42,917 bases of DNA. It comes from Bacteroidales bacterium. GTDB lineage: Bacteria; Bacteroidota; Bacteroidia; Bacteroidales; Marinilabiliaceae. The notes under the pieces were generated by a model. It did not search any database. It worked only from the letters and a program-made list of their open reading frames with translations, and was not told the origin of the DNA. The DNA is taken from the NCBI GenBank assembly GCA_017417385.1, contig JAFPZF010000070.1, forward strand, positions 1 to 42,917. The letters are read 5' to 3'. Both the position numbers and the translations under genes were made by a program. Shown here in pieces: positions 4,707 through 42,917 of the stretch. Positions within the stretch are counted from its first letter, which is position 1, and each line of letters opens with the position of its first letter.

Positions 4707-6440
4707 CTACCAGACCTTTAGTTCGGCGAGAGACCAGCCACGGAAGACCATAGCGGCGCGGTGGAGCGTCCAATTACGGGCAGCAGCACGAGAGAGGAGG
4801 GAGTGGTCCACAGCATAGCGGTCAGCCTGACTCACAGCATCGTCGAGGAGAGACTTGACCTCGGAGTCGGGAGCAGAAGCCTTGCAGTATTTCAGTTCGA
4901 TGATGACACCGTGGTCGACATCGGTACGAGGCTCGAGGAAGATGTCCATATAGCCCTTAGAGGCCTCACGCTCGGACTGAGCATAGTAGCTGGAAGTGCG
5001 GCATAGGTGGCTGAGCATGAAGCCCTTGACGAAAGCCTCACCCTCTGGGCCAAAGTCGCGGACAGAGCTATTCTCCTTAACAAGAGAAGCCAGATATGCG
5101 AGGAGAGCCTCGCAGTCTCCATCGTAGGCGAAGCCACTCCACAGTTCGTCGAGGACAGCCACGTCTGGCTGCCAGTCGATAGTGTGGGCGTAGCACTCCG
5201 TCATGTAGTGGTAGTATTGCTGACGGACGACCTCGTTAGGGATGACAAAGACGGCACGTCCACGCTCGTCGGGCCCCCAGGAGAGGAGGCCCATATAGTA
5301 GAGGAGGCTGACGACGTTGGAAGGTTTGAGGAGGTCTCCGAGACTAAACTCGCGGACAAGTTCGCTACGCCACCAGCCTTGCAGAGTTATCTTCTGAAGG
5401 AGACGGCTCTTCTGCTCAAAGCGACGCTCGAAACGCACGAGCATCTTCATCTTGTTGTAGTCCGTAGAGATATTAGTGTCGATCATCTGGTCTGGGAGGC
5501 TGCCATTCTTTCTGACGTACTCCTTCAAGAAATAGAGAGCCATGTCAGAATTGAACATGCGCTCGTCGTTGACACATTCTACGGCGAAGCAGTTGCTGTC
5601 GTAGTAAGGTTTCATGATGCCAACAAGCTCATCGACAGAGTGCTTGAAGACGCCTGTCTCGTGCTCGTAGTAGGCGAGCATATTGCGGACCTCGGTCTCG
5701 GAGAAGCCTATGGCGGAGTTAAGGCGGAAGTCCAAAGAATAGTTGGAGCCAATATTGAAGCCGCTCGTCACGTCACTGAGGCAAAGGGGACTCACACCAG
5801 TGATAAACATACGGTCGATAGGGGCATCGTTCATCGTAGTCCCCGCCTTAAGGATATTAAAGAAGAGACGGAAGAAACCGTCTGCATGCGTCATGTCCGT
5901 ATAGCCTTTCTCGTCGTAGGAGAGGATAGTATTGGCGAAGTTGTCGTACTCGTCGATCATGACGTACATACGCTGGTGGGCTATATGGATAACCTTTATC
6001 AACCATTTCAGATAGGCATCTGAGCGTTCACGGTTACGGATACGGTCCGATTCGTCGTAATCAAAAAAGCCAGTATAAGTCTTAATAAACTCATCGATAG
6101 TATTTATCACAGAGTCGTTGAACGAAGGCTGTACATTATTGGAGTTACAGCCAACGTCGGAGAAGTTGAACTTCAAGACGAGGTAAGAACTGTGAATCGA
6201 AGTGGGGTCGTGAGCAATGGCGAGACCGGAGAAAAGAGAATCGAAATTATCCTTCTCAAGGACGTCATAGTAGGTGGCGAGCATATTGAGAAATAGGCTC
6301 TTACCGAAACGGCGAGGGCGGAGGAGGAACACGTAACGATCCTGCTCAACGATAGGTATAGCCCAAGAATGATCTACAAAATAGTAGTTCTCCTTTCTGA
6401 CGACTTTGAAGTCAGAGACTCCATACGGTATCTTTTTCAT
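4707..6440 (-). CDS. AAA-ATPase_like / PD-(D/E)XK nuclease-superfamily protein (DUF1703-type)
   Basis: 577 aa. The N-terminus (GVSDFKVV...YYFVDH) and the Walker A-like RPRRFGKS (41-48) are typical of the Bacteroidetes AAA-ATPase_like family; Walker B is MYVMIDEYD near 165. The C-terminal part, about residues 480-560, has the PDDEXK_9 pattern: GYMDIFLEP then VIIELKYCK, supplying D, E and K of the nuclease fold. These proteins occur in many near-identical copies in Bacteroidales genomes; role unknown, with mobile-element or defence functions suggested. It converges with the restriction-modification pair, 15 bp between the stops, and has its own promoter at 6464-6471. Confidence 0.85.
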   Translation of the reverse strand: MKKIPYGVSDFKVVRKENYYFVDHSWAIPIVEQDRYVFLLRPRRFGKSLFLNMLATYYDVLEKDNFDSLFSGLAIAHDPTSIHSSYLVLKFNFSDVGCNSNNVQPSFNDSVINTIDEFIKTYTGFFDYDESDRIRNRERSDAYLKWLIKVIHIAHQRMYVMIDEYDNFANTILSYDEKGYTDMTHADGFFRLFFNILKAGTTMNDAPIDRMFITGVSPLCLSDVTSGFNIGSNYSLDFRLNSAIGFSETEVRNMLAYYEHETGVFKHSVDELVGIMKPYYDSNCFAVECVNDERMFNSDMALYFLKEYVRKNGSLPDQMIDTNISTDYNKMKMLVRFERRFEQKSRLLQKITLQGWWRSELVREFSLGDLLKPSNVVSLLYYMGLLSWGPDERGRAVFVIPNEVVRQQYYHYMTECYAHTIDWQPDVAVLDELWSGFAYDGDCEALLAYLASLVKENSSVRDFGPEGEAFVKGFMLSHLCRTSSYYAQSEREASKGYMDIFLEPRTDVDHGVIIELKYCKASAPDSEVKSLLDDAVSQADRYAVDHSLLSRAAARNWTLHRAAMVFRGWSLAELKVW

Positions 6441-6553: not shown

Positions 6554-7558
6554 TCAATCAGGGACGGCAGTCTGGGTCGGGTGGAGGCAGGAGTCGCGGA
6601 ACTCCTTGGGGGAGAGGCCATAGTTCTTGCGGAAAGCGGTAGAGAAGTGACTCTGGGAGGAGAAGCCGAGCAAGGAGGCGATATTGCTGATAGAGTCGGA
6701 AGTATCCGAGAGGAGGCGGGCGGCCTTGTTCATACGAAGGTCGTTGACATAGTCGAAGACCGTCATGGAGAAGACCTGCTTGAAGACCTTCTTGAGAGTG
6801 CACTCGTTGGTGCCGACGGTGGCGGCGAGCTCACGGAGAGAAGGAGGGTTCTGGAAATTCTCGTTGAGGACATTGCGAGCCTGGAAGATCTTGCGGCAGA
6901 CAGTGTAGCTATCGGGCAGAGGCTTATGGAACTGCTCGTAGTAGTAGTTGACGAGACACTCGACGACTAGACCTTCGACGAAGAAAGGGTTGACAGACTT
7001 GGAGAACACAGAGTTCTGGATATCTCGTGCGGCCTCGAGAATCTTACCTTTGGTATCGATAACCTCGTCGACGAAGGGTCGACCGGAGTCCAAGAGCCCC
7101 TTGAAGCCGGAGAAGATAATCGGGTAACGCTCGTTGTAGATATTAAAATCGGACTCGGAGATCATGATAGTAATCTTCTCGAAATGGCTACCGGCGGCGA
7201 GCTGAAGCATGTGAGTGTTAGAAGAAGGCACAATACCCATATTGACAGCGCCCTCGCCATGCTCGACGTGCTGATTGCCAATAATCTCGCAGGCGGAGCC
7301 GCCTGTCACGACAGAGAAGACGAGGGCACGCTCGTCGGTCCGATAGTTTTCGATAGTGCAATCCTTGAGGACATTGCAGCTGCCATACATAATGATACTA
7401 TTGTCGTGAGTGCAGAGGTGCGTCGTAATCTCGCAATGGTCTCGGACAGTGACGGAGGAGCGGAAAATAGAATCAGGGTTGCCCCTTAGCTCAGCCGGAG
7501 AGGGCAAAAACATAGATATGGGAGAGCCGGAGGAGCAGTTTATGGTAGACTTGAGCAT
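6554..7558 (-). CDS. AraC-family transcriptional regulator
   Basis: 334 aa from the ATG at 7558. The frame is open much further upstream, but that part is low-complexity and covers the next promoter region. The C-terminal ~100 residues form the double HTH of AraC/XylS proteins: LRELAATVGTNECTLKKVFKQ (first helix pair) and SNIASLLGFSSQSHFSTAFRK followed by GLSPKEFR. The N-terminal ~220 residues are a ligand-sensing region with no motif I recognise; the overall layout is like PchR-type regulators of iron or siderophore receptors. It is divergent from a TonB-receptor operon, which it probably controls. Confidence 0.85.
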   Translation of the reverse strand: MLKSTINCSSGSPISMFLPSPAELRGNPDSIFRSSVTVRDHCEITTHLCTHDNSIIMYGSCNVLKDCTIENYRTDERALVFSVVTGGSACEIIGNQHVEHGEGAVNMGIVPSSNTHMLQLAAGSHFEKITIMISESDFNIYNERYPIIFSGFKGLLDSGRPFVDEVIDTKGKILEAARDIQNSVFSKSVNPFFVEGLVVECLVNYYYEQFHKPLPDSYTVCRKIFQARNVLNENFQNPPSLRELAATVGTNECTLKKVFKQVFSMTVFDYVNDLRMNKAARLLSDTSDSISNIASLLGFSSQSHFSTAFRKNYGLSPKEFRDSCLHPTQTAVPD

Positions 7559-34154: not shown

Positions 34155-36038
34155 ATGAAAACTCTAAGAATAGCAGCGACGGGAATAGTAGCGTTGATGA
34201 TAGCGAGCTGCGGAGGCGGAAGTGGAAGCCAACAGCAGAGCACATCGACAGCGGAGCAGACACAGGAAGGGACTGCGGCGGACATGATGCAGGAGAGCGG
34301 CGTCGTGCGTCGGGTCAACGAGATGTATGATGACATCATAGCCACATACAAAGGAGACTGGAAGAAAAACAACGACGGGAGACTAGAGAACAAGTACCTG
34401 GCGGAAGAGACGAGGCAGCTCTGGAGCAAACATACAGAGCTCGAGCCGAGCTACATATTCCCGTGGTTCGTAGACAACAACTACGACTATGAAAGCTGCA
34501 GGGAGTTCGCCATAAAGTTCGTAGAAGTCGAGGAGCTCAGCATAGAGCCAGCGGCGGCGACCGTCCGCCTCACAGTACGCCCCGAGTGCAGCACGAAAAT
34601 GACAGTCGGGCACCTGAAGCTCGTCGTCGAGGACAACCAGTGGAAAGTCGATGACATAATCGAAGAGAACGACTACAAGTACATACGCAACGAGAAGGGC
34701 AGACTCGAGAAAGACGTCGAAGTCCTGACGAAGGTGAAAGAGATGTATGGCGAATACATCGAAGGATATAACAAAGGGAAGAAGTACGGAGAAGCAGAGC
34801 GGAAGTTCTGGTCGGAGGAGCTCAACGGAGAGTTCACCACGTATGAAACCACAGTAAGCCAGGTAGAGACAGGCTGGACGTGGGGAGTCGAAGGCGAGAG
34901 CATCAAGCAAGGGCTCATGCATATACTCGTAGGACCGAACGAGGATAAGCCCTCGTATTACGAGATAGGAGTAATAGTCGAGGGGAGCAAGACGAGCGCA
35001 GAGAACGTCGTCATAATGGACAAGGAGAATGGAGAATACAAGATAGTCGACTTTGCGGAGCTCGAAGGAGTCGAAGGAGAGTGGACGACGGGCGAGCGGT
35101 TCTCTCAGTACATGCGGAACGAGGTCAGCAAGGTCCAGTATGAGGCAGAGGCGAAAGAAATGTGGGCTCGTCTTGACGAGAGGACAGACGAGGACGTCTC
35201 GACAGCGCGCGAGCTCGTAGAGGCGCTGACGAGGAACATCAACAACATCGTCATAGCAGAAGGGGCCGTCATCAACCTGACAGAGATATTGAACGACAAG
35301 GAGTTCTTCCAGGAGGACGGCAGATACTGCAACGACGAGTACATAGACCCGAAAGACATCGATGCGAACGTCATCTGGCAGGGACAGAGCGACGGAGCGG
35401 AGCTCGTCATAAACAAGCTCGAGAGACTCGTGATACGCGGACAAGGGAAGGGCGCTACGATACTGATAGACAGTCGATATGCGAGGATATTCAGGTTCAC
35501 CAACTGCCAATATGTCGCGATAGACAACCTGACGCTCGGACATACCCAGGGAGGCTATTGCGAGGGTGAGGTCCTTGGGCTAGAGGACGTGACGGGCTTC
35601 CAGATATTGAACTGCGGACTGTATGGATGCGGTACGTGCGGAGTCTATATGTGGAACTGCACAGGAGTCGAGGTGAAGAACACGGCGATATATGACTGTT
35701 CGGAGGCGATAGCGAGGATAGACAATAGCGTCAGGACAAAGTTCACGAAATGCGACATGTATGGCAACGGCAGGGAAGGCAGCTGCATGCTCTATGCCTC
35801 GGGAGGAGAACCGGTAGAGATGACAGACTGCCACATCTTCGACAATGCGGCGAACATCCTATTCTGCCTCCATGCAGGGGCGAAACTGAAGGACTGCAAA
35901 GTGCAGCACGACGAAAATAACATAGGCGAGATAGAGGGGTATGAAATAAAGAACTGCGACATGAACGCCTCGGGCCTGAAGAAGAGAGAGGACGTCGGAC
36001 CACATCAACACATACTCATACCATGGGCAAAGAGATAA
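34155..36038 (+). CDS. Lipoprotein with two NTF2-like units and a Cys-rich beta-helix (paralogue 1)
   Basis: 627 aa, lipoprotein signal MKTLRIAATGIVALMIASC. Two NTF2-like units follow: about 48-170 (VNEMYDDIIATY ... LVVEDNQWKVDDI) and 185-300 (VKEMYGEYIEGY ... NGEYKIVDF). The C-terminal ~250 residues are a right-handed beta-helix: IAEGAVINLTEIL, GKGATILIDSRYARI, NLTLGHTQGG (near 460), ILNCGLYGCGTCGVYMWN, then short rungs with a Cys in each turn. No enzyme motif is visible; a surface binding role is plausible. Its end overlaps the next gene by 16 bp, and large parts are alike at the nucleotide level, so the pair arose by tandem duplication. Confidence 0.72.
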   Translation: MKTLRIAATGIVALMIASCGGGSGSQQQSTSTAEQTQEGTAADMMQESGVVRRVNEMYDDIIATYKGDWKKNNDGRLENKYLAEETRQLWSKHTELEPSYIFPWFVDNNYDYESCREFAIKFVEVEELSIEPAAATVRLTVRPECSTKMTVGHLKLVVEDNQWKVDDIIEENDYKYIRNEKGRLEKDVEVLTKVKEMYGEYIEGYNKGKKYGEAERKFWSEELNGEFTTYETTVSQVETGWTWGVEGESIKQGLMHILVGPNEDKPSYYEIGVIVEGSKTSAENVVIMDKENGEYKIVDFAELEGVEGEWTTGERFSQYMRNEVSKVQYEAEAKEMWARLDERTDEDVSTARELVEALTRNINNIVIAEGAVINLTEILNDKEFFQEDGRYCNDEYIDPKDIDANVIWQGQSDGAELVINKLERLVIRGQGKGATILIDSRYARIFRFTNCQYVAIDNLTLGHTQGGYCEGEVLGLEDVTGFQILNCGLYGCGTCGVYMWNCTGVEVKNTAIYDCSEAIARIDNSVRTKFTKCDMYGNGREGSCMLYASGGEPVEMTDCHIFDNAANILFCLHAGAKLKDCKVQHDENNIGEIEGYEIKNCDMNASGLKKREDVGPHQHILIPWAKR

Positions 36039-37858
36039 AGTGGCTGTTGACAGTCTCGGCAGCCGCACTATTCGGCTGTGCAGGAGGCAACACCCAGCAG
36101 GGAGAGAGTGCGACGGGCAGTGGCGAGCTGATGAACGAGACATCCGTCACGAACAGAGTCCGCGACATATATGCAGATGCCGTAGCCGTCTACGGGAAGA
36201 GCGAGGAGAAGAACGGAGAGCTCGAAAAGAAGTATTTCTCGGAAGAGTATCGGAAGCAATATGAAGAGTATAAGAGCTACGACAAAGACTATTTGCCGGA
36301 GTGGTTCGACTTCTATGCGGACGGGTATTGCAAGAATTTCACGGTCACCGGTATCAAGATAGAAGAGATGAGCGAGTCGCCAGCAGAGGCGACAGTCAGA
36401 GTCGACATCAAGCCGGAAGTGTATGAGAGCACAGGCTACATGAAGTTGAGACTCGTCGAGGAAGGCGGGGAGCTGAAGATAAGCGACATGATCAACGACC
36501 GGTGGACACAGACGGCAAGAAGTGCGAGGGAACAGCTCCAGGACAGACTGAAAGTCTATAAGCGAATCGGCGAGATATATGCAGACTACAGCAAGGGAGA
36601 CCGGGCAGTAGGCGCATACGAGACACTGTATTGCACAGACGAATACAACAAGGCATACAAGGAGTACATAGACGCCGTCGGGCTGGACGAAGCCGACTGC
36701 CCATGGACAGGAATGGCGAGCAACGAGGCCAAGATAGAGAACATGGCCATCATGATAGAGCCGAGGAAGTATAGCACCGAGGAAGAGAGCGACGGAGAAT
36801 ACACAGTCATGGTACAGTTCGGTGGTGCGAACGGGAAAGACGGGGACAGAGTGTGCGTCATGATGGCGCCGGCAGGAGACACCTATAAAATAGCCAACTT
36901 CGGAACCGTCGATGAAGAGGAAGGCGGCGGATATTACGTCAACGAAGCGTTCACACAGGTGATGGAGGTTGCAATCGACGAGAAGAAGATGGAGAAAGAG
37001 GGTGAGGAGATGTGGAGAAGGACGAACGAGAGGGGAACAAAGGAAGTCAGCAACGGGAAGGAGTTCGTCGAAGCGTTGACAGAAGGAAAGAGCAACATAG
37101 CCATAGCAGAGGGGGCCGTCATCAACCTGACAGAAGTCCTAAGCGACGCAGAGTACTTCAAGAAAGACGGGCGATATGACCTCGGAGATGACGAGACAAT
37201 AGCAGAAGTCAAGGCGAGAGTCATCAGGGAGGAGATGCCCGACGGGAGCCAGCTGACGCTGAAGGGGCTGGAGAGGTATAAGATAGAGGGACGAGGGAAG
37301 GGTGCTACGCTACTGATAGACAGTCGGTATGCGCGGGTACTGAGCTTCGTCGACTGCCAGTACATACAGATAGAGAATCTGACACTCGGACATACACAGG
37401 GTGGCTCGTGCCTCGGCGAAGTGCTGAGCCTACAGAACGTCAAGGGTTGCAAGATAGACAACTGCGACCTGTACGGATGTGGGACGTGCGGCATATATGC
37501 AGAGGGCGGAAACGGGCTTGACGTCAGGAACACAGCTATCAGGGAGTGCTCCGAGGCGATAGTGAACCTCATCGGGAACTACAGGCCGAAGTTCACCAGG
37601 TGTGACTTCTACAAGAATGGCGAAGAGGGCGGACATCTGTTCAATGCCATGGAAGGCTGCGGAGGAGTAGAGGTCGAGGACTGCTATTTCTTCGGGAACA
37701 GCAACGAGCTGTTCGGAATGGAAGGCCACCTGAAGCGATGCAAAGTCTCTCATGAAGTAGATCAGCTCGGCGAGACGTACAGCATAGAGTTTGAGGACTG
37801 CGACATGAATCCTGGGCAGTTGACAAAGCGGAGCGACGTCGGGCCTGGGGCGCATTAA
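36023..37858 (+). CDS. Lipoprotein with two NTF2-like units and a Cys-rich beta-helix (paralogue 2)
   Basis: 611 aa, lipoprotein signal MGKEIKWLLTVSAAALFGC. Same plan as the preceding gene: NTF2-like units at about 45-165 (VRDIYADAVAVY ... VEEGGELKISDM) and 180-310 (GEIYADYSKGD ... AGDTYKIANFG), then the beta-helix with AEGAVINLTEVL, GRGKGATLLIDSRYARV, NLTLGHTQGG (near 454) and LYGCGTCGIYAEGG. The start codon lies inside the previous gene (16-bp overlap), so translation is coupled. The divergence is greatest in the NTF2-like units and least in the beta-helix, suggesting the helix is the conserved functional part. Confidence 0.72.
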   Translation: MGKEIKWLLTVSAAALFGCAGGNTQQGESATGSGELMNETSVTNRVRDIYADAVAVYGKSEEKNGELEKKYFSEEYRKQYEEYKSYDKDYLPEWFDFYADGYCKNFTVTGIKIEEMSESPAEATVRVDIKPEVYESTGYMKLRLVEEGGELKISDMINDRWTQTARSAREQLQDRLKVYKRIGEIYADYSKGDRAVGAYETLYCTDEYNKAYKEYIDAVGLDEADCPWTGMASNEAKIENMAIMIEPRKYSTEEESDGEYTVMVQFGGANGKDGDRVCVMMAPAGDTYKIANFGTVDEEEGGGYYVNEAFTQVMEVAIDEKKMEKEGEEMWRRTNERGTKEVSNGKEFVEALTEGKSNIAIAEGAVINLTEVLSDAEYFKKDGRYDLGDDETIAEVKARVIREEMPDGSQLTLKGLERYKIEGRGKGATLLIDSRYARVLSFVDCQYIQIENLTLGHTQGGSCLGEVLSLQNVKGCKIDNCDLYGCGTCGIYAEGGNGLDVRNTAIRECSEAIVNLIGNYRPKFTRCDFYKNGEEGGHLFNAMEGCGGVEVEDCYFFGNSNELFGMEGHLKRCKVSHEVDQLGETYSIEFEDCDMNPGQLTKRSDVGPGAH

Positions 37859-37869
37859 AGACGAGAGCT

Positions 37870-39375
37870 ATGGGAAAGAAGTTGGTGATAGGAATAGCCG
37901 TGGCGGCAGTGCTGGCAAGCTGCACGACGGGAGGTGGCGGACAGCCGCAGAAAGAAGACCCGATGGCGAAGTTCACGGCTGCAGACAGCATGAAGGCCGA
38001 GTACGTCGAGACGTATGCTGAGAAGATGTATAGCGACGTCATCGAGGCATACACAAAGGGCGATGAGGGCCGAGTGAACACCATCACCAACAAGGACAAG
38101 CAGTACCTCTCAGAAAGCCTCCTATATCTAGAATCCAACTTCGGCGGTGAGGGAGACTCGTACAGCAGATGGTTCTTCAACGAGAAGTGTGACAGCATCA
38201 AGGTCAGGAACCTAAGAGTCGAGACAATGTACCCGACAGACAGGCGAGCCATGGTGATATTCGACGTAGAGGGTTGCACGAAGGGGGTACAGAAAGACTG
38301 CAGGATAATGATGAGGAGGGAAGGCGGAGAGTGGAGAGTAGACAACTTCATCTGGGAGCTGACAGACCAAGACGCCAACTACGGTAAGTACAGGTATATC
38401 ATGAGCGAGAAGCAGACATTGCAAGACATCGAGCAGCAGTTTATCGACCAGGAGCGAGCAGAGATAGAGAGAGAAGAGGGCGGAGTCGAATGGGAAGATG
38501 GGAAAGAAGGAGGAGAAGGGGAAGAAGGCTTGGAAGAATACAAGAGCGAGATAGGGATGACGTGGGACGGGACAGCAGTCACGACACCAGGAGCGTTACT
38601 GGCAGCGATAGAGACTGAGCCGAAAGTCGTCGAGATAGCAGAGGGCGTCACGCTCAACCTCACGGAGTTACTCGAGAAGACGAAAGGCGTCTTGTATGCA
38701 AGAGTACAGAGCACAGGGACGGGGCTCGTATTGAACGAGATGGGGGCGATAACAATCAAGGGCCTCGGCAAAGGTGCGAAGATAGTCATAGACGACCAGC
38801 AGAGTGACGTGCTCTACTTGAGGAACTGCACGGGCATAAAGATAGAGAATCTGACCCTCGGGCACACAGGAGGAGGAGCAGAAGAAGGGGGAGACGGAAG
38901 AGAAAGGAGAGGGACAGCCATAAACATAACAGACAGCAAGAACATAGAGATAGAGAAGTGCGAGCTAAGCAGTAGCGGGTCGGTAGGCGTCTCGGCATAC
39001 AACACAGAGAACCTACGGGTCAAGAACACACTGATAAAAGACTGCGCTGACGGAGGGACGATAGCCATACACTGCAAGCATGTCACGTTCAAGCACTGCG
39101 AGATAACGAAATGCGGGAGAGCCAGCAGGTACCTAATAAAAGCATACGAAGGCGAGGGGCTGACATTCGAAGACTGCCTCATACATAGAAATGATAATGA
39201 CGAGGTCGTGTTCGACGTCAACTACAAGACAGAGCTTGAAAACTGCGACGTCGGGACAGACGGGATGCTAACAGATGGAGAGTCCGTTGAGTTCGTCAAA
39301 TACAACGAGAACAGCATGTTCGGTTGCAACAATTGTCCGGGAGCGGGCGGAAACGGAGCAGGCCCAGGGCGGTAG
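37870..39375 (+). CDS. Lipoprotein with one NTF2-like unit and beta-helix (paralogue 3)
   Basis: 501 aa, lipoprotein signal MGKKLVIGIAVAAVLASC. A single NTF2-like unit (about 40-165, ending MMRREGGEWRVDNFIWE), a low-complexity Glu/Gly linker (about 205-225, from the purine tract GGAGAAGGGGAAGAAGG) and a beta-helix with ITIKGLGKGAKIVIDD, NLTLGHTGGG (near 329) and rungs each carrying a Cys. The helix is shorter than in the two paralogues and has an extra insertion after the GHTGGG motif. It ends in a Gly/Asn-rich tail with CNNC. Starts 11 bp after paralogue 2. Confidence 0.7.
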   Translation: MGKKLVIGIAVAAVLASCTTGGGGQPQKEDPMAKFTAADSMKAEYVETYAEKMYSDVIEAYTKGDEGRVNTITNKDKQYLSESLLYLESNFGGEGDSYSRWFFNEKCDSIKVRNLRVETMYPTDRRAMVIFDVEGCTKGVQKDCRIMMRREGGEWRVDNFIWELTDQDANYGKYRYIMSEKQTLQDIEQQFIDQERAEIEREEGGVEWEDGKEGGEGEEGLEEYKSEIGMTWDGTAVTTPGALLAAIETEPKVVEIAEGVTLNLTELLEKTKGVLYARVQSTGTGLVLNEMGAITIKGLGKGAKIVIDDQQSDVLYLRNCTGIKIENLTLGHTGGGAEEGGDGRERRGTAINITDSKNIEIEKCELSSSGSVGVSAYNTENLRVKNTLIKDCADGGTIAIHCKHVTFKHCEITKCGRASRYLIKAYEGEGLTFEDCLIHRNDNDEVVFDVNYKTELENCDVGTDGMLTDGESVEFVKYNENSMFGCNNCPGAGGNGAGPGR

Positions 39376-39390
39376 CGTGGCGGAGGGAAG

Positions 39391-41094: not shown

Positions 41095-42078
41095 ATGAGA
41101 AGCAGACTAGTATACATAGCGCTGCTCGGGGGATTGTTATCCTCGTGCAACGCAGGAACAGGGAGTTCTGACAACAGTCAGGCGACAGAGACAGTAGCTG
41201 GAGACAAAGCAGGAAGCGCAGTGGAGGGGAGAGAAGGGGAACAGGTAAAAGAAGGGGGAAGCGAGATAGATAAGGCGAAGGTTGAGAGCGAGGTAAAGGA
41301 AAGAGTCGAGGCAATATACAAAGAACTCGAGACGAGCAGTGACGCCGAAATAGACGCGAAGTACATGAGTCAGGCGCTGCTGAAGACATACAGGGCAGCC
41401 AGCGAGGCGAGCAAGGTTGTCGGAGGGATATTTGAAGACGCGAGCCACTGGAAGGAGTGCAATGACATGCCGGAGAGAGTGAAGAGCGAGGTAGGAGACG
41501 TAAAGATAGAGACGGGGGAGAAAGCAAAAGTAGAGGTCAGGCTCAGCGTAGAAGGAGAGAGCGAGAAGAAGATAGAGCTCGAGATGACGAAAGAAGAGGG
41601 GAAATGGAAAGTCTCTGACATAGTGAGGACAATAGAGGGCGAGGAGTACAGCCTCAGGGAAAGCACGGAGAAGATGGTAGAAGTCGGGAAAGCCACGGAC
41701 AAGATACTCGACAATATAGGAGGAGAATGGGGATGGGCGACGAAGGGAGCACCAGAGCTCATAATAGAGATAGGAGTCGAGACATACGGGGAGATAAGGG
41801 AGGCGAAGTTGAAGAGCTGTTACCTATATAGGGACATAGACTTCAAGAATACGAACCTATTCATGAACGCAGAGGAGGGGACAATAAACCTTTACACGCC
41901 GTCGAACATGACGAACAGAGTAGATGCCAAGTTGAAGATAGAGAGGGACGGAGTCATGAAGGGGACGATAAAAGTAAAAAGAGGGGAAGAAGGGGAAGAA
42001 GGTGAAGGAGGAACCTGGAGTGAGGAGAAAGAAATCGAGATGAGACGGGATTACAACTTTTACGACGAAGCAAGGTAG
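41095..42078 (+). CDS. NTF2-like lipoprotein with C-terminal beta-sandwich-like region
   Basis: 327 aa from the ATG at 41095, which starts the lipoprotein signal MRSRLVYIALLGGLLSSC; an earlier frame start at 41035 lies inside the AAA+ gene. After a charged linker, one NTF2-like unit (about 65-180) ends EMTKEEGKWKVSDIVRTIE, the same signature as in the tandem paralogues. The last ~130 residues are beta-rich (LIIEIGVETYGEIREAKLK, AKLKIERDGVMKGTIKVK), interrupted by a Gly/Glu run from the purine tract. Last gene of the run, 34 bp after the AAA+ stop. Confidence 0.65.
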   Translation: MRSRLVYIALLGGLLSSCNAGTGSSDNSQATETVAGDKAGSAVEGREGEQVKEGGSEIDKAKVESEVKERVEAIYKELETSSDAEIDAKYMSQALLKTYRAASEASKVVGGIFEDASHWKECNDMPERVKSEVGDVKIETGEKAKVEVRLSVEGESEKKIELEMTKEEGKWKVSDIVRTIEGEEYSLRESTEKMVEVGKATDKILDNIGGEWGWATKGAPELIIEIGVETYGEIREAKLKSCYLYRDIDFKNTNLFMNAEEGTINLYTPSNMTNRVDAKLKIERDGVMKGTIKVKRGEEGEEGEGGTWSEEKEIEMRRDYNFYDEAR

Positions 42079-42274: not shown

Positions 42275-42312
42275 GATTATCAAAAAAAGGACATGTCCTT
42301 TTTTTGATAATC
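42275..42312. repeat. Perfect 38-bp palindrome
   Basis: GATTATC, seven A, GGACATGTCC, seven T, GATAATC reads identically on both strands without a spacer. The GC core flanked by A7 and T7 would act as an intrinsic terminator in both directions (after the lipoprotein gene and for anything reading leftward), or could be a protein-binding site for the sRNA promoter 16 bp further on. Confidence 0.85.
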
Positions 42313-42327
42313 GTAAGAGAGACGAAA

Positions 42328-42392
42328 GTACGAAACGTGATAGAAATTGTCCGAAATATGAAACTGCGAGAAATCAAGTCGGCGTAACTTTG
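42328..42392 (+). promoter_or_regulatory. sRNA copy 1 promoter with two GTnCGAAA boxes
   Basis: GTACGAAA (42328-42335) and GTCCGAAA (42349-42356) start 21 bp apart; the second starts 36 bp before the -7 box TAACTTTG (42385-42392). The same geometry recurs at copy 2. Confidence 0.65.
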
Positions 42393-42398
42393 CAGTCG

Positions 42399-42528
42399 AA
42401 AAAGGAAGACAACCGCTATGACCTAAAGATATAGGGTCGGCTAACGATGAGAAATCATAGTCCGGGTTTCGCACACATGGAGATTATGGTAGCACAGAGT
42501 CCGAAGGGAGTCTGTGCTACCATTTTTT
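42399..42528 (+). ncRNA. Small RNA gene, copy 1
   Basis: Start inferred about 7 nt after the -7 box, end at the terminator T-run, about 130 nt. Blocks conserved with copy 2: ACCGCTATGACCTA, ATAGGGTCG, CGATGAGAA and TCCGGGTTTCGCACACATGG. A hairpin GACC...GGTC forms around AAAGATATA, and ATGA-GAAA-TCAT forms a tetraloop hairpin. No open frame of note. The RNA ends in a strong intrinsic terminator, so it is a free RNA and not a leader. Family unknown to me. Confidence 0.7.
42486..42528 (+). terminator. Intrinsic terminator of sRNA copy 1
   Basis: ATGGTAGCACAGA (42486-42498) pairs with TCTGTGCTACCAT (42511-42523) without mismatch, and T continues for six bases (42523-42528). Confidence 0.9.
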
Positions 42529-42745
42529 ATGGGGTAAAGAGAAGAGGGAACGCTAAGAAGGGACGCAAAGGGAGGAGAGGGCAAGGAGAAGAGATCTATC
42601 AAGAAAGAGGGAGGAGAGCGTATGTCTGGGGGTGGAGAGTAGAAATGAAGGGGAGTGCGACAAGAAAGAGATGTGAGAGAAACGGTTGAAATGAGTATAA
42701 GAAAAAGGAGAATGTACCAAAAGGGATAGGGAAAAGGCGAAGAAA
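42529..42745. other. Purine-rich spacer between sRNA copies
   Basis: No gene or stem-loop seen; long A/G runs on the + strand. Confidence 0.4.
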
Positions 42746-42810
42746 GTCCGAAAATTGATAGAAAATGTACGAAACGTGAAATAGCATGTCGGGGAGGCGG
42801 GGTAACTTTG
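42746..42810 (+). promoter_or_regulatory. sRNA copy 2 promoter with two GTnCGAAA boxes
   Basis: GTCCGAAA (42746-42753) and GTACGAAA (42767-42774) start 21 bp apart; the second starts 36 bp before TAACTTTG (42803-42810). The order of the two box variants is swapped relative to copy 1, the distances are identical. Confidence 0.65.
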
Positions 42811-42816
42811 CAACAA

Positions 42817-42917
42817 GAAAAGATCATAACCGCTATGACCTAGACAATAGGGTCGTCAAACACGATGAGAAGTCACATTCCGGGTTTCGCACACATGGGA
42901 ATTGGGTAGCACTGGGG
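42817..42917 (+). ncRNA. Small RNA gene, copy 2 (runs off the window)
   Basis: Same blocks as copy 1 in the same order: ACCGCTATGACCTA, ATAGGGTCG, ACGATGAGAA and TCCGGGTTTCGCACACATGG, then GGTAGCAC, the start of the terminator stem. Linkers between the blocks differ, so the copies are not a recent duplication. The 3' end lies beyond the window. Confidence 0.65.

Follow-up and report, generated by a model that had tools for sequence, protein, structure and literature searches.

The window, a stretch of 42,917 nucleotides that constitutes contig C27 of a 3.6-Mb genome in 97 contigs, ends in two units resembling small-RNA genes, both on the forward strand. Their cores start at positions 42461 and 42879, 418 bp apart, which agrees with the pair of RNA genes described in the original prediction. 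Copy 1 extends from 42411 to 42528 as a covariance-model match of 123.6 bits, a score obtained with a model derived from all five copies of the family, this one included, and its RNA was originally estimated to start near 42399. The 20-nt core of this copy, TCCGGGTTTCGCACACATGG (42461..42480), is identical in all five copies. It is followed by an intrinsic terminator (42486..42528), recognized by sequence, self-complementarity and folding, in which a perfect 13-bp stem (42486-42498 with 42511-42523) precedes a T run reaching 42528, as had been predicted. This terminator was absent from the list of a simple terminator scan, probably because the scan allows 8 loop bases and the stem encloses 12. 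Copy 2 (42828..42917, covariance model), with an identical core at 42879..42898, is cut by the end of the window and continues as C41:51-170. Just before the promoter of copy 1 lies a 38-bp perfect palindrome with A7/T7 arms (42275..42312), read from the sequence and likewise missed by the simple scan, which is perhaps a two-way terminator between the upstream lipoprotein gene and copy 1.

When up to 3 mismatches are allowed, the 20-nt core occurs at six places genome-wide, exact in each case (control: 0). Because the last 140 bp of the window are identical to C41:1-140, this overlap doubles one copy and the six places amount to five distinct copies: the two in the window, copy 3 at C41:491-610 (covariance model), and copies 4 and 5, both on contig C89. 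The longer array suspected beyond the window edge was thus recovered, with at least three copies across C27-C41 plus the two on C89. The exact 140-bp overlap between the end of C27 and the start of C41 looks like an assembly-graph break inside a repeat, and the array could exceed three copies.

Lipoprotein-like genes occupy positions 34155-39375 and 41095-42078 of the window; three of them match right-handed beta-helix families and two match DUF3828, in one case below the cut-off. A further lipoprotein-like gene starting at C41:645 has distant relatives at C27:36113, C27:41188 and C22:21365, and gave no match in 14 congeneric genomes. On C89, the spacer between copies 4 and 5 (L013, ~5280-6200) contains, as judged by eye, diverged repeats of ~165 bp (CACAGAGTTTTTAAGGCCTCACACAGAGG ...), and ~600 bp downstream of copy 5 lies a gene for a 2155-aa repeat protein (L073:182-6649), probably secreted, whose family matches are all weak and repeat-like. 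A tRNA/tmRNA search of the window found none, a search against plasmid sequences gave no match, and the phage sequence search gave one 22-bp match (E 0.1).

Promoter geometry and candidate regulator

The promoter of copy 1 consists of box 1 (GTACGAAACGTGATA, 42328..42342), located by pattern search and alignment of the copies, box 2 (GTCCGAAATATGAAA, 42349..42363), which starts 21 bp after the start of box 1, and a -7 box (TAACTTTG, 42385..42392), which begins 36 bp downstream of the box 2 start and fits the consensus TAnnTTTG quoted in the excerpted text of PMC7366714. The corresponding elements of copy 2 are box 1 (GTCCGAAAATTGATA, 42746..42760; pattern search and alignment of the copies), box 2 (GTACGAAACGTGAAA, 42767..42781; box pattern searches) and the -7 box (TAACTTTG, 42803..42810; alignment of the copies). 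The spacings originally reported are therefore accurate: the GTnCGAAA boxes start 21 bp apart in both copies (42328/42349 and 42746/42767), the nearer box starts 36 bp before the -7 box (42385 and 42803), and the box variants are swapped, with GTACGAAACGTGA in box 1 of copy 1 and in box 2 of copy 2. All five RNA promoters have this 21/36 geometry, and the -7 box and a terminator hairpin are present in every copy. From these positions, two direct-repeat boxes of ~15 bp each appear to sit just upstream of the -33 region; in both C89 copies an additional, third box is located two 21-bp periods (42 bp) farther upstream.

With at most one mismatch the two-box pattern occurs at five places in the 3.6 Mb of this genome, all before these RNAs (0 for a reversed-pattern control), and with up to three mismatches at seven places, versus one for the reversed control. 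One two-box site, on C83 with three mismatches, looks coding by eye. A single box followed at 36 bp by TAnnTTTG, with at most one mismatch, is found in this genome at the other six of these places only (control: 0). Among nine stretches of the genome scanned for box pairs at 21 bp spacing with at most two mismatches per box, TAnnTTTG lies at +36 in six of seven pairs; the exception is a weak pair at position 39382 of the window.

The sixth place lies before a protein gene. A two-box promoter with the 21/36 geometry is located at C82:21354: its second box starts exactly 36 bp before the -7 box TAGTTTTG, and 52 bp beyond the start of this -7 box begins an ORF encoding a 1602-aa protein. The protein is probably secreted, based on a signal-peptide-like start judged by eye, and searches against Pfam and NCBIfam gave no family match. 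The idea that the two-box promoter is a signature of the RNA genes had to be abandoned, since the same promoter also precedes this protein gene; it rather defines a regulon that includes at least one protein gene.

The excerpted text of PMC3878776 describes the sites of Bacteroides AraC-type hybrid two-component regulators (HTCS) as direct repeats averaging 21 bp apart, with the monomers on one side of the DNA. The initially postulated regulator, which would bind two sites on one DNA face, matches this published geometry: as in HTCS regulons, two direct-repeat sites lie exactly 21 bp apart in all six promoters, and 36 bp separate the start of box 2 from the TAnnTTTG -7 box in all six. The genome encodes nine AraC-type domains, all above the Pfam cut-off; three belong to multidomain proteins. 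Two proteins combine AraC with kinase and receiver matches (one on C25, and one on C22 in which the receiver and HisKA matches are below the Pfam cut-off), and the AraC-type domain on C77 adjoins a sub-threshold Y_Y_Y match. One AraC-type regulator is encoded in the window itself (6593-6829), about 36 kb from the RNAs. The regulator is therefore predicted, at the level of class only, to be of the AraC type, most likely a hybrid two-component protein or another of the nine AraC-type proteins.

The boxes might instead be bound by another direct-repeat regulator, for example of the LytTR type, or form part of a non-standard sigma-factor promoter, an explanation compatible with the other readings of the RNA. 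Site geometry alone names no protein, repeats spaced by about two turns are also typical of LytTR sites, and the stretches around seven of the nine AraC-type genes yielded three single boxes, each with one mismatch, and no pair spaced by 21 bp. Against this, the -7 box fits the primary-sigma consensus (PMC7366714), and 21 bp is the average given for AraC-type HTCS sites in the excerpt of PMC3878776. We consider a regulator outside the AraC class rather unlikely.

Structure, conservation and distribution of the RNA

The window and the C41, C82 and C89 stretches (L012, L013, L072, L073) contain no Rfam match above the curated cut-off, in line with the earlier expectation that the RNA matches no known family. 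At a relaxed E-value three sub-threshold matches appeared: the terminator resembled miRNA families in two of them, and the purine-rich spacer a snoRNA family in the third. The RNA had also been proposed to be structured. This holds for the terminator hairpin, which occurs in every copy and is the sure element of the modelled structures; the 5' fold is almost devoid of covariation support, with one of 32 pairs changed on both sides, a count equalled by 359 of 500 shuffles. Single-sequence folding, which covered copies 1-4 and not copy 5, gave copy 1 a better fold than its shuffles (z -5.8), the values for copies 2, 3 and 4 being -2.0, -3.1 and -4.0. In model R1 the 5' domain is drawn with two stems, one of which closes it, and two small hairpins. 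RNAalifold, applied to the uncorrected alignment, predicts a different 5' fold, in which a small hairpin takes up much of the core, with the terminator common to both folds, and the three-way junction of model R1 is thus to be regarded as hypothetical. The core is likely exposed according to the models: the minimum-energy fold of copy 1 leaves UCGCACAC unpaired and pairs the final four bases of the core, and the centroid structures of copies 2 and 3 keep the core unpaired. In the minimum-energy folds of copies 2 to 4, by comparison, parts of the core are paired. This dependence of core openness on the fold slightly lowers our confidence in the best explanation.

Conservation, which is seen solely among the copies inside this one genome, is distributed very unevenly. 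Between copies 1 and 4 the core is identical (20/20) and the -7 box nearly so (7/8), followed by the boxes (12/15 and 11/15), the 5' domain (38/53) and the terminator (29/43), and then by the linker between the boxes and the -7 box (12/21), the 5' leader (8/18) and the downstream spacer (63/201). We regard this uneven decay as the best evidence that selection may act on the core and the promoter. Two pairs of copies are near-identical from the boxes to the terminator (5' domain 50/51 for copies 2/3 and 52/53 for copies 4/5) and have diverged flanks (downstream 95/222 and 77/198, respectively). Near-identical units in differing surroundings indicate about three unit lineages, and suggest that copying of a short unit has probably happened.

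Outside its own genome, the family was not convincingly found. A DNA search of 41 genomes recovered the own genome only (1/41), as did the covariance model in an order sample of 393 genomes (1/393). In 71 genomes of the taxonomic family the model matched two, the own genome and the congener G011, and we rejected the latter as a member: its 31 bits are carried by the terminator hairpin, and many 5' pairs are broken. The G011 terminator itself (L027:1551-1603, AATTGGTAGCACTAGA...TCTAGTGCTGC) closely resembles the 3' end of the family and may represent a remnant or a terminator that is shared. Stricter filters applied in these model searches, and no more than 50 (71 family genomes) or 9 (393 order genomes) first-look candidates were scored per listed genome, so that weak relatives could escape. 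In 14 congeners, the two-box pattern with up to three mismatches gave 17 matches (2-3 mismatches each), against 12 with the pattern reversed; five matches were inspected by eye, and none of the 17 is claimed here. A single box with TAnnTTTG at 36 bp gave five matches in the congeners, four with one mismatch, and the sole exact one (G003) lies inside a coding frame. Neither the RNA nor the two-box promoter was thus convincingly found in the 14 congeners, and one outcome that the original prediction had named as refuting it, a lack of conservation in related genomes, applies outside the own genome. The core 17-mer gave no match in viral contigs, and two gapped-pattern matches in genome contigs (Omnitrophota and Mycobacterium) had no covariance-model match at E up to 1 and were taken as chance. 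Within what was searched, the small-RNA family is likely restricted to one species. The core sequence is absent from the open literature searched (subscription papers and most preprints lie outside it), and the same literature contains no paper combining hybrid two-component system, Bacteroides, small RNA, AraC and sRNA.

Proposed function and alternative explanations

The multiple copies, their fixed geometry, the identical core, the promoter shared with a protein gene and the terminator hairpins can all be read directly from the genome. They are best explained, with a probability of roughly one half, by a species-restricted multicopy small-RNA family that is switched on together with a surface protein by one AraC-type activator, a reading in which expression, regulator, pairing and targets are inferred. 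Each copy would be an independent small-RNA gene, presumably transcribed from its own primary-sigma promoter into an RNA of ~120-130 nt ending in the terminator hairpin. One AraC-type activator dimer would bind both boxes, and its binding would turn on the RNAs along with the gene for the large, probably secreted protein. The RNA would comprise a folded 5' part, the invariant core around UUUCGCACACAUGG, either open or in a weak hairpin, and the terminator hairpin. The core would probably pair with target mRNAs, a role suggested by its invariance and by the closest analogue, FopS of Bacteroides thetaiotaomicron, which represses SusC-type mRNAs. The RNA could then act as the repressing arm of a surface-protein regulon, with several copies raising dose and speed.

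Searches for targets returned no clear candidate. The complement of the core, with at most two mismatches, occurs at eight places genome-wide, six of which are the RNAs themselves, and no near-perfect target was found; the other two are about what is expected by chance according to our estimate, and the one inspected looks coding by eye. When 86 5' regions, among them those of shadow ORFs, were searched for duplexes, 68 of 100 shuffled queries equalled the RNA.

The empty near-perfect search would also be expected if the RNA acted by binding a protein without pairing to mRNAs, the core and stems forming the binding site and the copies titrating the protein in a CsrB- or 6S-like manner. A core invariant to the letter in five copies, the multiplication of the copies, the consensus fold that places the core in a hairpin, and the one RRM_1 protein encoded in the genome would all fit such a role. 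However, each transcript contains a single core and no array of motifs, no Rfam family was matched, 6S and Csr-type included, and missing targets are weak evidence when the search consisted of 86 5' regions and one genome-wide near-perfect pattern. Action through protein binding seems to us rather unlikely, though it is a serious rival.

It is improbable that the copies are a functionless short repeat, recently spread and alike through recent copying. Such an origin would account for the lack of relatives in the other genomes tested, apart from the terminator match, for the location of copies in repeat-rich spacers, and for the near-identity of copies 2/3 and 4/5 within the unit and not in the flanks, which is what short-unit copying predicts. 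Without selection, however, decay as uneven as that between a fully conserved core and a largely diverged spacer in copies 1 and 4 would be unexpected, as would the recurrence of this promoter geometry ahead of an unrelated gene for a protein.

Distinctly improbable, too, is a cis-acting leader or attenuator, in which the terminator would lie between promoter and gene and the RNA would sense for the downstream gene. Copy 3 could be read in this way, as it ends at C41:610 and the lipoprotein-like ORF starts at C41:645. Yet copies 1 and 2 are followed by the promoter of the next copy, copy 4 by a spacer of ~1 kb and then copy 5, and copy 5 by ~600 bp before the next large ORF, and each copy has a complete promoter and terminator; we rejected this explanation for the four of five copies that lack a close downstream gene. 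Finally, we give hardly any weight to a small-peptide or type I toxin gene, suggested by a short frame seen by eye in copies 2 and 3, with its ATG immediately ahead of the core and its stop codon ahead of the terminator, that could encode a 14-residue peptide across the core, and rejected because the frame of copy 1 continues through the terminator (80-aa ORF, 42447-42689), copies 4 and 5 lack an ATG at that place, and, by eye, the core is identical even at third codon positions and changes just before it alter amino acids.

Relation to known systems and significance

Most of what is known about small RNAs in Bacteroidota comes from Bacteroides. The system most similar to the multicopy family proposed here is FopS, whose 14 members in B. 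thetaiotaomicron repress SusC-type mRNAs at the start region, according to the excerpted text of PMC11697453; the same excerpt names RbpB, an RRM_1-domain protein, as a partner of multicopy sRNAs in Bacteroides. Common to both are multicopy paralogous sRNAs with their own primary-sigma promoters in the same bacterial order (the host order here being judged by the earlier reader and from the TAnnTTTG box), an invariant segment read as a seed, a terminator hairpin, and an RRM_1 protein in the genome. The differences are nevertheless considerable. FopS RNAs measure ~65-70 nt, with a single-stranded 5' seed and a terminator, whereas the RNAs described here would reach ~120-130 nt, a length predicted from sequence, and have a 5' domain predicted to be folded. 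According to its authors, FopS has been placed in Rfam; the present RNAs match no family in the Rfam library searched. FopS promoters are described in the excerpt as canonical and possibly enhanced by an unknown regulator, in contrast to a two-box promoter common to a protein gene, and FopS is spread through the Bacteroidaceae (PMC11697453), whereas the new RNA was found in one genome.

The promoter, for its part, resembles those of HTCS regulons in its two direct-repeat sites about 21 bp apart, mannan HTCSs having 16-bp sites with a 5-bp spacer according to the excerpt of PMC3878776. The regulons described there contain glycan-utilization genes, whereas five of the six promoters found here precede small RNAs, and the protein product of the sixth belongs to no Pfam or NCBIfam family. 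A second parallel is GibS with PM2, a Bacteroides intergenic sRNA with a non-standard promoter element common to protein genes, although PM2 is near-palindromic with elements at -10 and -30, unlike two direct repeats upstream of a standard -7 box (excerpt of PMC7366714). SnoA, presented in PMC13370916 as an antisense RNA locus, is unrelated to these RNAs.

The proposed small-RNA family appears to be new. The kind of sRNA and the type of promoter are already known, and it is their combination and the confinement to one species that are of interest. It is possible, if doubtful, that the RNA family was born and multiplied within one AraC-type regulon: five RNA copies were found per single protein gene, and non-coding RNA would then be the main output of this regulon. 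If real, these RNAs would constitute a separate multicopy family with a promoter that can be read letter by letter, and an activator common to a large protein gene, so that the regulator and its trigger could be searched for directly. The question of how sRNA families arise could also be approached more easily with an RNA gene family limited to a single species.
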